From positions 131,182 to 195,181 of the forward strand of contig NZ_SJPK01000003.1 in assembly GCF_007859855.1 (NCBI RefSeq): a DNA stretch of 64,000 nt, read 5' to 3'. Every line of letters starts with the position of its first letter. Positions within the stretch are counted from its first letter, which is position 1. Source of the stretch: Allorhodopirellula solitaria. GTDB taxonomy: Bacteria; Planctomycetota; Planctomycetia; Pirellulales; Pirellulaceae. Below the pieces are notes generated by a model. It did no database searches and was not told where the DNA came from. It worked only from the letters and a program-made list of their open reading frames with translations. Position numbers and translations under genes: made by a program. This document shows, one piece after another, positions 57,394 through 60,591 of this stretch.

Positions 57394-57565
57394 CCAGGGT
57401 GAAGAGTTGAGGCCGTGTCAATTTCAGTCGAATAACGGTAGAAATCACGGGGAACGGGCGGAAAACTTGCAAGCAGACGAGAAAACGGACCACCCGTTCT
57501 CCCGTACACTTCATGGTTCCACGCCGGCCTGGGTTCAACGAATTGCGTCACGTCGCGCCTCTGGA

Positions 57566-57832
57566 TCACGCCCGAGCATTGGCAATCAGAGACGCCACGG
57601 CCAGCACAATGCCAGCGACAAAACCACCGAAACTGCCTTGAGTCACGCCAAGGCCGATGCCAACGGCAAGTTCGTCCAAACGCTGCGGTTGAACGTCTGG
57701 GAACATAGCACGATAGTAAGCTGGGTTATACGTCCCCATCAAATACCCAACGGCAGCGCCGCCTATGCACCCTAGAATCGTCAGTGTCACGACGAAAGCG
57801 ATTGGCGTCTTGAATTGTTCGAGTTCGGGCAT
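57566..57832 (-). CDS. Small membrane protein, unknown
   Basis: The 88 residues hold two long hydrophobic helices (TPIAFVVTLTILGCIGGAAVGYLMG and LAVGIGLGVTQGSFGGFVAGIVLAVASLI) with many glycines, linked by a polar YNPAYYRAMFPDVQPQRLDE loop. It resembles short planctomycete hypotheticals, with no assigned role. It and the neighbour at 57085-57393 lie on the same strand 172 bases apart and may form a unit. Confidence 0.75.
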   Translation of the reverse strand: MPELEQFKTPIAFVVTLTILGCIGGAAVGYLMGTYNPAYYRAMFPDVQPQRLDELAVGIGLGVTQGSFGGFVAGIVLAVASLIANARA

Positions 57833-58278
57833 TGCAAATGGTTCGGTCCAGGTAGCAGAAGGGTAGCCAATGTCGGCGAACGGTAGACATCAATGGGGAC
57901 GGCAGAGCGAAGTTCACCTGCCAAGACGTGAACGTCGTCCTCCATTGCATGGCGTTGGATGGTTTAGGCTTTAGCGAAACGCCGTGAGGTGGCCAGCAGC
58001 AACCAGTCTTACGGGCATTGTATCGGTGTGGGATTCACGACACAACTTCGGACCTGGGGTTCGCCAGGCGTTGGAGTTGTCACGCCTTGGGATTGGCACG
58101 CGTTGGATTCATCAGGCGTTGGAGTTGATCGGCACTGGCTTCCGCAGTGTCGTGCTGCGGACATCGTGTTCGGCTACCACGGCAATTGTCGCCGTGCCGA
58201 TCGTTGGGTCGAAACGCTAACGGGAGCGCAGATTCGACAAGCGTTGCACGACGCCGCTAAATCAAATAACGGTGGCCG
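57833..58278. other. Intergenic region with short direct repeats
   Basis: No gene is supported. CAGGCGTTGGAGTTG occurs at 58065-58079 and again at 58113-58127, with a third, looser GCGTTGGATTC between them, giving a roughly 48-base periodic block. The overlapping plus-strand frames look repeat-derived. Confidence 0.6.
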
Positions 58279-58797
58279 TCACCTAGGACGGACGATTGAT
58301 TTTCCATTGGTATAATCGCGCAAGCCGTCCTTAGGTGCACGGCTTGGTTCTGGCTTTCTTTCGTGCTCGTGCTCAGCATCGCGGTGCTCGTGCTCGTAAT
58401 CGTTCCCCAGCTCATAGTCTACCGACGGCTCCCTAACGCCGTCAAACTTCATCGCCATTCGAGTTAGCATCGAGACAATTCGTTTGAGCATCCGTTTCAG
58501 TTCTCGACTCGCCACGTCCTCCAAACCGTCCGTCGCAACCAGAACATCTTGAATCGCAGCACATTCAAACGCAGATCCGCGAGCAATGTCGAAAAATCGA
58601 GCACGATCTTTCAAGCTGCGCTTGCCGTTACCCTCGGCGATGTTCAGCGGAATCGATTGAGCAGCGCGAAGCCATTGATCACGAGCGTGGCGATGCAAAC
58701 CGCTCAGCGATTTCGAAACGTCGAATGCAGCAGCGACGTATCCGATTGACAAACGGTAGACGTCGAGTCGATCGTGGTCGAAGATTGGTTCGGTCAT
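58279..58797 (-). CDS. S23/four-helix-bundle protein
   Basis: The 172-residue protein starts IFDHDRLDVYRLSIGYVAAA and has QWLRAAQSIPLNIAEGNGKR and DRARFFDIARGSAFECAAIQ, the signature of the S23 (IVS-encoded, PF05635-type) four-helix-bundle family, which is related to Avd accessory proteins. Residues 1-115 cover the bundle. The C-terminal tail (DYEHEHRDAEHEHERK) is His/Glu-rich and encoded by the left arm of a long inverted repeat whose other arm lies just upstream of the start. Function in this family is not established outside 23S rRNA insertions and retroelement partners. Confidence 0.85.
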   Translation of the reverse strand: MTEPIFDHDRLDVYRLSIGYVAAAFDVSKSLSGLHRHARDQWLRAAQSIPLNIAEGNGKRSLKDRARFFDIARGSAFECAAIQDVLVATDGLEDVASRELKRMLKRIVSMLTRMAMKFDGVREPSVDYELGNDYEHEHRDAEHEHERKPEPSRAPKDGLRDYTNGKSIVRPR

Positions 58798-58858
58798 GGT
58801 TGCGCCATTTCGATTACGAGCACGAGCACCGTTTCACTGAGCACGAGCACGAGCACGA
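58361..58858. repeat. 42-base inverted repeats bracketing the S23 gene
   Basis: The arm at 58361-58402 and the arm at 58811-58852 are reverse complements at 37 of 42 positions: 21 identical bases (CGATTACGAGCACGAG...), 5 differing, then 16 identical. The right arm carries one further GAGCAC unit. The left arm is inside the S23 coding region, the right arm lies just upstream of its start. A second short hairpin (CAAGCCGT/ACGGCTTG, 58321-58346) lies in the gene's last codons. Confidence 0.85.
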
Positions 58859-59953
58859 TGGCCACTTTGTGCCAGAACGAGGTAATTATCGCTGGTTGTG
58901 GGGGTGATAAGTTGATCCGCGGGGGTGTTATCGCCGGTTGGACCTTCGGTTCCCTCGGTGGCACGGAAAGTGCTGTCGCCGGTTCGAGGGAGTCTTATCG
59001 CCGGTTGGCTTGGCTTGAGTATGAGGGCTCTGAATTCTTGGGTCAAGGAAATTCTCGAACGAGTTTCTGGCGAAAACAGGTAGCTTGCAGTTGCCGCTCC
59101 GCCCGGACAAGCCGGACGGAAGCGAACATAGATGCCCGTGAAAATCGAGTAAAGCTGCTTAAGTCCACGCCATTCTTGCTTGAGTCCGTTTTATCGGGCA
59201 TCTGCAAATGTTTCGGTCCATCCGGGTTTGTCGTAGGTAACTCCAGCGTGTTGGATTTTAGAGGCATGGCGGTGGCGTCCGAAATGAGCGATGCCGTCAC
59301 AGAATGAATGCTGGCGGCGGACGCGTCCGCTGCCAGCCGAAGTGGCTCATCCGACGGAAGTGTGCGCGGAGCACAGGGGGAAGGTTTTTCTAGGCATGGC
59401 TCTCGTATCCAATAATCTTACAAAAATGGGTGCCCGACGAACGAATGTCCGCCAGGGACCGGCAACACCATTGGCGTACCATCGACCGAGATATCCCTTG
59501 CCAAGCCAGCACCTCTGCAGAGTTCGGCTCCGTTTCTCCCGGCAGCTCCAGGCTAACATCCACTATCACCTCCGACAAATCAATCATTGGATACTGGAGC
59601 CATGCCTCCAAAACCTCCAGCGCACGCTTCCGTCGGATGAGCCGCCGAAGTCACCTTTCGGCTCATGTGCGACCGAGATATTCCTAGGCAAGTTGCTTCC
59701 CAGCCGCCGCAGGCCACAAGTGCCCAAATGATACCAAGGAACTGGTTTTGAGTATCTTGGAATATCCGCGGCGGGTCGTGAAGGCTGTTCTCTACATGGT
59801 ATCTCGTGCCCGTTTCTCAGCCTGGTCTCGGGAGTTTGCTTGAAAATGACCTTGGTGGCTCGCCGAAAAGCGTTGACCCCGTTTGAGGGAATAACAGAGC
59901 CTTACTCCCGCGCCTGCCGCGTTTTTCCGTTCCCCCTTTACCGGGGATTCGTC
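58859..59953. other. Repeat-rich region, no supported gene
   Basis: The 14-mer TTATCGCCGGTTGG appears at 58928-58941 and 58995-59008, with a degenerate third copy at 58886-58899, spaced by 40-70 bases. GTGTTGGATTTTAGAGG at 59248 matches the dispersed element next to the IS630 copy. Frames such as 59291-59731 and 59043-59300 have no family motif. The region seems to be a landing zone for small repeats between an S23 gene and a decayed IS110. Confidence 0.6.
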
Positions 59954-60591
59954 ATGGCCAAGAAATCGAAACCTCAAAAACCGAAACGACGTTCGCGTGT
60001 CGGATCTCCCGACAATAACGCGCGTGTCCGCTGCTTTAGTAAGTTTACCGCCGATCTCGAATCACTCGCCGATTGGCTGGACGACTGTGGCATGGAGACC
60101 GTAGCAATGGAGTCAACCGGCGTGGCTCTTCAAGGAAATTGGCGTGAAGAACATCTCTTTGCACTGCAACAGGCTCTTGAGCTGTATCGTTACTACGGGA
60201 CGAAGCTGGTGGAGCTCGATAAGAAACAGGAGCAGCACCTGAGTACGTTTGAAGACCTTAGCGAGGGCGAGGTACTGCCGAAGCTCCAAGCCCCCATGGC
60301 AGCAAGCAATAGCCCTGCCTTCGACATGCGAAATCACCTATACCGAATCCTGGGGATGGATCTAACCACCATCGACGGAATCGGCGGCCAAACCGCTATG
60401 ACGCTGATTTCACTGCTACTGCGCACAAACTCGCAAAAATCGTCTATGGGATGCTAAAATACGGCAAGAAGTACATCGACATCGGGAAGGATTACTATGA
60501 AAAGGAGTACCAAGAAAGGGTAAGGAGAAATCTCGAAAAAAGAGCGGCTGCTCTCAATTTCAAGCTGGTTCCAAACGATCCTGCCGGGTGA
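59954..60591 (+). pseudogene. IS110-type transposase remnant with internal deletions
   Basis: An N-terminal piece (RCFSKFTADLESLADWLDDCGMETVAMESTGV) matches the RuvC-like start of IS110 transposases. It jumps directly to the middle helix region (EEHLFALQQALELYRYYGTKLVELDKKQE), then GMDLTTIDGIGGQTAMTLI, the Transposase_20 start. After a frame change near 60410 the C-terminus (AHKLAKIVYGMLKYGKKYID to NFKLVPNDPAG) follows. So at least two blocks are deleted, and the catalytic set is incomplete. The stop at 60589-60591 is 29 bases from the fumC stop. Confidence 0.82.

Follow-up and report, generated by a model that had tools for sequence, protein, structure and literature searches.

The S23-family gene of Allorhodopirellula solitaria is framed by inverted arms, and arms of a similar kind frame most of the relatives examined in several bacterial phyla, which suggests that arms and gene form one compact mobile unit. 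The unit was studied in a stretch of 64,000 nucleotides, referred to here as the window. We consider it probable that the feature in the window is an integron gene cassette (58270–58877) carrying an S23 unit, and that S23 units are compact, mobile in their own right and recognised as foldbacks. The gene is small and lies between mirror-image arms within an apparent gene-capture cassette (Table 1).

Table 1. Coordinates of the S23 unit and of the cassette features around it, in window positions.
Feature	Position	Strand	Basis and remarks
Whole S23 gene cassette	58270..58877	(-)	Ends common to nine copies; crossover read between G and TT
S23-family gene, PF05635 four-helix bundle, 172 aa	58279..58797	(-)	Last codons extend into the attC site
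5' arm, hexamer repeats directly upstream of the start codon	58811..58852	(-)	Pairs with the 3' arm at 37/42; present in nine full copies, with hexamer indels
3' arm, codes for the Glu/His-rich tail of the S23 protein	58361..58402	(-)	Repeat finder, inverted 42-mer scan and copy alignment
attC of the S23 cassette	58268..58353	(-)	Covariance model 90.4 bits, E 1.8e-25, partly by construction because the S23 type is a model seed; DNA fold z -6.3
Second attC, end of the next cassette	57879..57963	(-)	Covariance model 61.3 bits, E 2e-16
Third attC, end of the cassette with an 88-aa ORF, 57566-57832(-)	57434..57522	(-)	57.3 bits, E 3.4e-15
attI-like repeat region upstream of the S23 cassette, units like ACCGGCGATAAC	58880..59060	(-)	Similar before the first cassette at several genome sites

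In a profile search, the S23 ORF matched the 23S_rRNA_IVP family PF05635 (E = 8.2e-20, 71.4 bits; cut-off 33.8) and also TIGR02436. The solved structures 2gsc (XCC0516, Xanthomonas) and 2rld are related to the family profile, and a single-sequence structure prediction of the protein gave a mean pLDDT of 50 and was set aside. The earlier note had described inverted repeats that frame the gene and match at 37 of 42 positions, one arm being coding, and had placed the gene away from any rRNA. Both descriptions were confirmed: the arms were recovered by a repeat finder (88% complementary) and by a scan of the window (37 of 42), and no rRNA was matched within window positions 57500–60500. In gene orientation the right arm lies directly before the ATG, whereas the left arm encodes the His/Glu-rich tail. 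A chance repeat was ruled out, as no second inverted 42-mer pair was found in the whole 64-kb window (ungapped, at least 34 matches, 360–760 nt spacing). The folding of the transcript that the note had proposed showed the arms closing a long stem. The window unit has the S23/IVP-family ORF and the complementary termini of an intervening sequence (IVS), but not its site inside 23S rRNA. A group II intron was also considered and rejected (Rfam E = 0.14, 15.8 bits versus a gathering score of 49, opposite strand). Elsewhere in the window, a dispersed repeat of about 300 bp at 59344–59643 has inverted repeats at or near its ends (arms of 24 and 31 nt), recurs at several loci of the same genome at 80–98% identity and looks like a MITE, and the ORF at 59840–60457 resembles what we take to be a fragment of an IS110-type transposase.

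A DNA search of the genome revealed eight other copies of approximately 58267–58879 on several contigs at 97–100% identity, as well as two nearly full-length copies of the cassette at 73–74% and many pieces. Aligned in gene orientation, the nine copies have sharp ends, GTTCTGGCAC... and ...CCGTCCTAGGTGACGGCAACCGTT, with single substitutions, and the GTT boundary is common to both ends of copies at different places. By convention, integron crossover is placed between G and TT. Some of the nine copies have gained or lost hexamers in a single arm while the partner arm stayed as it was, so rapid mutual correction of the arms does not take place, a point against the mobile-unit reading. The earlier note had offered two explanations for the arrangement. 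An IVS-like mobile unit at an intergenic site was largely right, in that sharp-ended repeats occur at nine places, though the likeness holds for the gene and its complementary ends and fails for a location in rRNA; an inverted remnant of another S23 gene's tail as the source of the right arm was wrong, the arm lying inside the cassette in all nine copies. The unit extends further than had been described, to the full cassette, whose nine genomic occurrences have common ends apart from single substitutions. Missing from the note was the unit's likely vehicle here, an integron cassette that ends in an attC site.

The attC site of the S23 cassette shows the anatomy of a 3' attC, in which outer and inner arms are both paired, bases bulge out and a spacer stays unpaired. 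When it is folded as DNA (-26.3 kcal/mol, z = -6.3), its outer CCAGAAC is paired with GTTCTGG at the start of the same cassette; the fold also has two inner arms, two bulged bases and the unpaired spacer. The covariance model was built from five seed attC sites, all from this genome; the S23 type is among the seeds, while the other two sites of the window are not. With this model, 81 matches were obtained at E values up to 1, distributed over 32 loci of the same genome.

The flanks of the nine copies differ yet group in classes. The window copy and the copy at C4:315k have attI-like repeats upstream in common, and the copies at C3:286k, C4:396k and C14:4k have another upstream sequence in common. 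Those at C12:152k, C12:154k, C12:183k and C3:572k directly follow the attC of another cassette, and two of the C12 copies have similar downstream flanks. Neighbouring cassettes adjoin in tandem at CCGTT; in one instance a diverged S23 copy comes directly after an S23 copy. The upstream sequence shared at C3:286.6k, C4:396.3k and C14:4.2k contains a palindrome (AGGTCGTATT...AATACGACC) and is perhaps a second kind of insertion site; on C14, no attC match besides that of the S23 copy itself was found in the 4.1 kb examined.

An integron integrase is encoded at C12:180843–181790 (TIGR02249, E = 1.3e-123), divergent from an array in which an S23 copy is the second cassette. IntI thus lies beside an array that holds the cassette in this genome, while the window copy is on another contig, on which the nearest integrase matches are more than 100 kb away. 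From the three attC sites, the attI-like repeats and the distance to an integrase, the window unit appears to be an S23 cassette in a small attC cluster without an integrase of its own; "attI-like" is our reading of 58880–59060 from its position and repeats. Regions of this type recur at C4, C8 (two), C6, C2, C12:149.9k, C17, C13 and C9, nearly all with no integrase match nearby, and several directly precede a cassette. One such site adjoins a second integron integrase frame (L010 677–1999, on C12 of the same genome), which looks degenerate because only its C-terminal part matches the family model and the middle is missing by eye. Through its attC site the S23 cassette would be open to movement by the integron integrase of this genome, and such mobility would explain the nine near-identical copies, a support drawn from anatomy. 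On sequence evidence, the integron is not the source of the inverted arms, which belong to a widespread compact unit composed of 5' arm, S23 gene and 3' arm, to which the integron of Pirellulaceae would add its own mobility.

To place the arms in a wider frame, we compared S23 genes from several collections. DNA similar to the cassette was found in 22 of 60 genomes, including its own, in many cases limited to an arm or to the attC end. Scanning with the protein left 80 of 91 window-family loci, mostly from Planctomycetota such as Neorhodopirellula, Roseimaritima and Rhodopirellula. Of 41 related loci, 22 had an attC at the 3' end of S23; the eight non-Planctomycetota loci among the 41 gave no match to the attC model, which is derived from this genome and may miss distant attC sites. 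Complementary arms framed the gene in 43 of 48 window-family loci, one arm directly before the ATG and the other in or after the C-terminal tail. The arms are of types GTGCTC, GTACTC, ATCGNN and others, so that their sequence varies by locus while the partners match within a locus, and arms of different sequence frame the gene at the eight loci tested outside Planctomycetota.

In total, 126 of 148 S23 genes reached an arm score of 14, a threshold chosen after the nulls were known; the 22 genes without arms by this test count against the mobile-unit reading. The earlier note had proposed that other S23 genes of the genome be checked for the same arms and that their lack, combined with a right arm that is merely the 3' end of a degraded second S23 gene, would refute it; since the other genes do carry arms, that objection falls, and within the same genome 16 of 17 S23 genes are armed, nine of these being the near-identical copies and the sole failure running into a gap of N. 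The Planctomycetota set was picked blind to arms and comprised 70 loci from 61 genomes (30 automatic and 40 hand-picked among the matches listed, ranked by E value); 56 scored at least 14, compared with 8 of 840 cross-locus pairs and 1 of 41 other ORFs. Arms were found at 21 of 25 loci on viral contigs (cross pairs 12/250) and at 14 of 16 mostly cyanobacterial plasmid loci (7/160). The viral set was reduced from 35 loci by ten near-duplicates or partial matches, and the plasmid set from 28 records by twelve that were duplicates, relatives of included units, partial matches or four Riemerella records; L261 and L262 in the plasmid set are one insertion in two records. When these three broad sets were pooled, 91 of 111 own pairs reached the threshold versus 26 of 1110 cross-locus pairs. 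The window-family set (37 of the 80 loci) had arms in 35 of 37 loci, and its cross pairs also scored often (164/370) because the arm motif is common to the family. Eleven loci belong only to the separate 48-locus test: eight armed (seven further copies of two species, and L104) and three unarmed, of which L117 and L118 are cut by contig ends and L125 is a partial match. Loci that share a species or a plasmid lineage cannot be treated as independent in these counts, and the samples were capped. At random positions in the same loci, scores were at most 12 in 110 of 111 cases, with one at 31.5, and further random positions gave at most 12.5 in 126 and in 76 cases.

The arms are mostly built from degenerate tandem repeats of 6–8 nt. 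Among 120 arms of at least 20 nt, the period was 7 nt in 66, 6 nt in 30 and 8 nt in 14, with a mean identity at the best period of 0.74 versus 0.44 in shuffled arms. At the 56 armed Planctomycetota loci the median arm was 32 nt, the 5' arm ended a median of 24.5 nt before the start codon taken, and the outer span was about 446–542 nt between quartiles. Counted on unaligned flanks, the arm type agreed between both sides in 40 of 45 loci, disagreed in one and was undefined in four. On the S23 protein tree of 41 armed loci, arm type required 2 changes, the minimum, a concordance that is favoured by reading arm types on aligned arms. This tracking fits co-diversification of protein and arm, and equally plain common descent. 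The non-planctomycete loci with arms and the total of 126/148 rule out a peculiarity of one lineage. The S23 relatives L293, L294, L295, L298, L311 and L315 are without arms; L294, L295, L298 and L311 have a different motif, Q-L/I-NRASLS, and a tRNA gene lies within the stretch examined in L294, L298 and L311. A search of a phage collection with one query found no S23.

Empty sites, which the earlier note had suggested looking for, were found on plasmids. In cyanobacterial plasmids S23 genes lie inside operons, between cas6 and cas4 or cas10 and cmr3, and in transfer regions, and related plasmids without S23 include those of Picosynechococcus 7002 (cas10-cmr3), Nostoc C057 and Calothrix; for the Trichormus unit there are six plasmids without S23 at about 98% identity. 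S23 genes in cas loci have been noted earlier (18 genes), with no mention of arms in the passage concerned (PMC3936711). One empty plasmid was aligned per case. L262 differs from L272 by a 423-bp insert whose ends are the arms and which has GTAAT on either side; L279 differs from L267 by a second insertion with the arms at its ends and no clear duplication. In both clean pairs of filled and empty plasmids, which concern relatives of the window unit, arms and gene were jointly present or jointly absent, with inverted repeats at the insert ends as in foldback elements and MITEs; that a target-site duplication is suggested at the first site only counts against the mobile-unit reading. In L264/L273, L255/L274 and L266/L271, the divergence between filled and empty member was too great to place the ends exactly. 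At the L262 site, L275 carries a shortened copy, and related units (78–82%) with similar ends occur at other plasmid sites. An S23-less element of approximately 170–200 bp with the same arms is nearly alike on two Nostoc plasmids (L280, L281) at two different sites; by eye, its arms surround two apparent small inner hairpins. At the site of the L264 unit, the Nostoc ATCC 53789 plasmid (L276) has inverted heptamer-like repeats around other DNA without S23, so arms can exist without the gene, which we count against the mobile-unit reading. In the Pseudanabaena plasmid L258, the S23 gene lies between cas6 and cas4 and is flanked by long AAAAGCT and AAAAGCC heptamer arrays; these arrays are direct rather than inverted, and this too counts against that reading. 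In the genome of A. solitaria, comparison of the flanks of the S23 gene at C21 gave short pieces, and at C1 flank homology stops near the arms, with other DNA in between.

The comparisons document arms in most tested S23 genes, complementarity specific to the locus, joint presence or absence of arms and gene, and S23-less mini-versions with the same arms. From the arms on most S23 genes and their joint presence or absence with the gene at two plasmid sites, S23 genes that stand free appear to be compact mobile units with the arms as their ends, in the manner of the S23 intervening sequences in 23S rRNA; they measure about 420–540 bp and lie between genes in several phyla. In the mechanism that we propose, the arms would be the ends of the unit and would fold back on each other as single-stranded nucleic acid, an S23 oligomer may recognise this foldback, probably at the DNA level, and host or other enzymes would cut and join. 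The unit encodes no recombinase or nuclease, which counts against the reading as a mobile unit; the genome has 16 Y1-transposase matches.

The unit could instead act at the level of RNA, with the arms pairing in the transcript and RNase III excising the S23 RNA from host mRNAs as in 23S rRNA, so that a site within an operon would be harmless and pairing would be kept by selection on RNA. The long stem in the folded transcript and the units inside cas operons would suit such a process, and the Coxiella 23S IVS, with its terminal stem of 28 bp, is cut by RNase III in vitro (PMC4990558). We regard it as unlikely, since selection for a paired RNA stem should clearly raise G·U above A·C, whereas the arm mismatches on the S23-sense strand comprise 134 G·U and 110 A·C. 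This comparison would not register pairing in RNA made from the other strand, a limit that bears on units lying antisense to adjacent genes, and it is compatible with RNA folding itself. A further point against the RNA reading is that no rRNA was found at the 20 S23 loci scanned. The near-equality of G·U and A·C, together with the agreement of arm types, leads us to infer that a DNA-level foldback recognised by S23 is the favoured form of the mechanism.

S23 might also be a passenger, with another enzyme or heptamer-repeat recombination moving units bounded by inverted heptamer arrays while the protein plays no part. The S23-less units with both arms at two plasmid sites point in this direction, as does the fact that 12 of 26 plasmid records matched by one unit match it over only about the length of one arm. 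Heptameric tandem repeats of Nostoc, Xanthomonas and Beggiatoaceae, often inverted pairs in Xanthomonas, are described as mostly intergenic with a mechanism of spread that is unknown, and without a link to S23; the term S23 is absent from the main text of both papers (PMC4692102, PMC4679880). The Xanthomonas heptamers described in PMC4692102 include GGGAATC. Mini-elements are, however, equally expected if S23 acts in trans, and arms accompany S23 in several phyla, with arm type following S23 clade, so that a mere passenger role seems rather improbable. Far less credible is the insertion of S23 units into pre-existing inverted heptamer repeats, which would make the arms a target lying outside the unit itself. 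Some cyanobacteria are rich in heptamer arrays (PMC4692102, PMC4679880), and the S23-less repeats of L276 could be either such a target or an S23-less derivative, but the clean empty sites L272 and L267 have neither arm, and related units at two other plasmid sites (L277; L278 and L279) carry similar arms. A plain integron cassette, with arms that are no more than low-complexity repeats incidental to one gene lineage, would account for the complete cassette anatomy and the simple hexamers of the local arms, but it is contradicted by the cross-locus test (91/111 versus 26/1110) and by eight non-planctomycete loci that lack an attC-model match yet have arms of other sequence, and we give it hardly any credence.

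The proposed mobile unit resembles several known systems in part. Like the S23/IVP intervening sequences of 23S rRNA, it has one S23-family ORF, a small size (about 450–540 nt from arm to arm in Planctomycetota) and stem-forming complementary ends; unlike them, the scanned units lie in intergenic or intra-operonic DNA without surrounding rRNA, and their arms are mostly tandem repeats of 6–8 nt that vary by locus. The Coxiella IVS is 428 nt long with complementary ends, and such sequences have been proposed to be remnants of transposition (1990) or mobile elements with an ORF that aids mobility (1993) (PMC4990558); S23 ORFs also occur in rRNA insertions of CPR bacteria (PMC11270868). With integron cassettes and attC clusters away from an integrase it shares one ORF plus attC, G/TT ends, copies in arrays and elsewhere, and a true IntI in the genome, but here the cargo has inverted arms of its own and related S23 units occur at loci without an attC-model match. 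The usual integron core has the consensus GTTRRRY, whereas the core here is GTTCTGG. The 7-nt units, frequent inverted pairing in Xanthomonas and mostly intergenic siting recall the heptameric tandem repeats, although here such repeats terminate S23 units and their S23-less derivatives. MITEs and foldback elements are likewise short, with terminal inverted repeats, and have counterparts to the S23-less derivatives and the one possible 5-bp target duplication; in contrast, the S23 unit is without a transposase and its arm sequence is not conserved between subfamilies. The Avd accessory protein of diversity-generating retroelements has a related fold (PMC10053308). Among the matches listed in a search of titles and abstract starts in the open-licence literature, we found no published link between free-standing S23 genes and flanking inverted repeats or integron cassettes.

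Where S23 intervening sequences come from and how they move is a long-standing question, and arms that match in a locus-specific way, together with empty sites, make the hypothesis of an S23 mobile element directly testable outside rRNA. More broadly, and as a tentative proposal that we regard as possible rather than probable, S23/IVP genes may be a widespread class of minimal mobile elements, each consisting of one four-helix-bundle protein and two co-diversifying foldback arms of 6–8 nt repeats, with rRNA intervening sequences, insertions in cas and conjugation operons and many cyanobacterial heptamer repeats as complete, captured and decayed forms, and with an integron cassette as a further form in Pirellulaceae. 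The abundant heptamer repeats of bacteria would thereby gain a candidate source and a candidate binding protein, and in A. solitaria a gene with its own ends would have been captured as a cassette, now present in nine near-identical copies.
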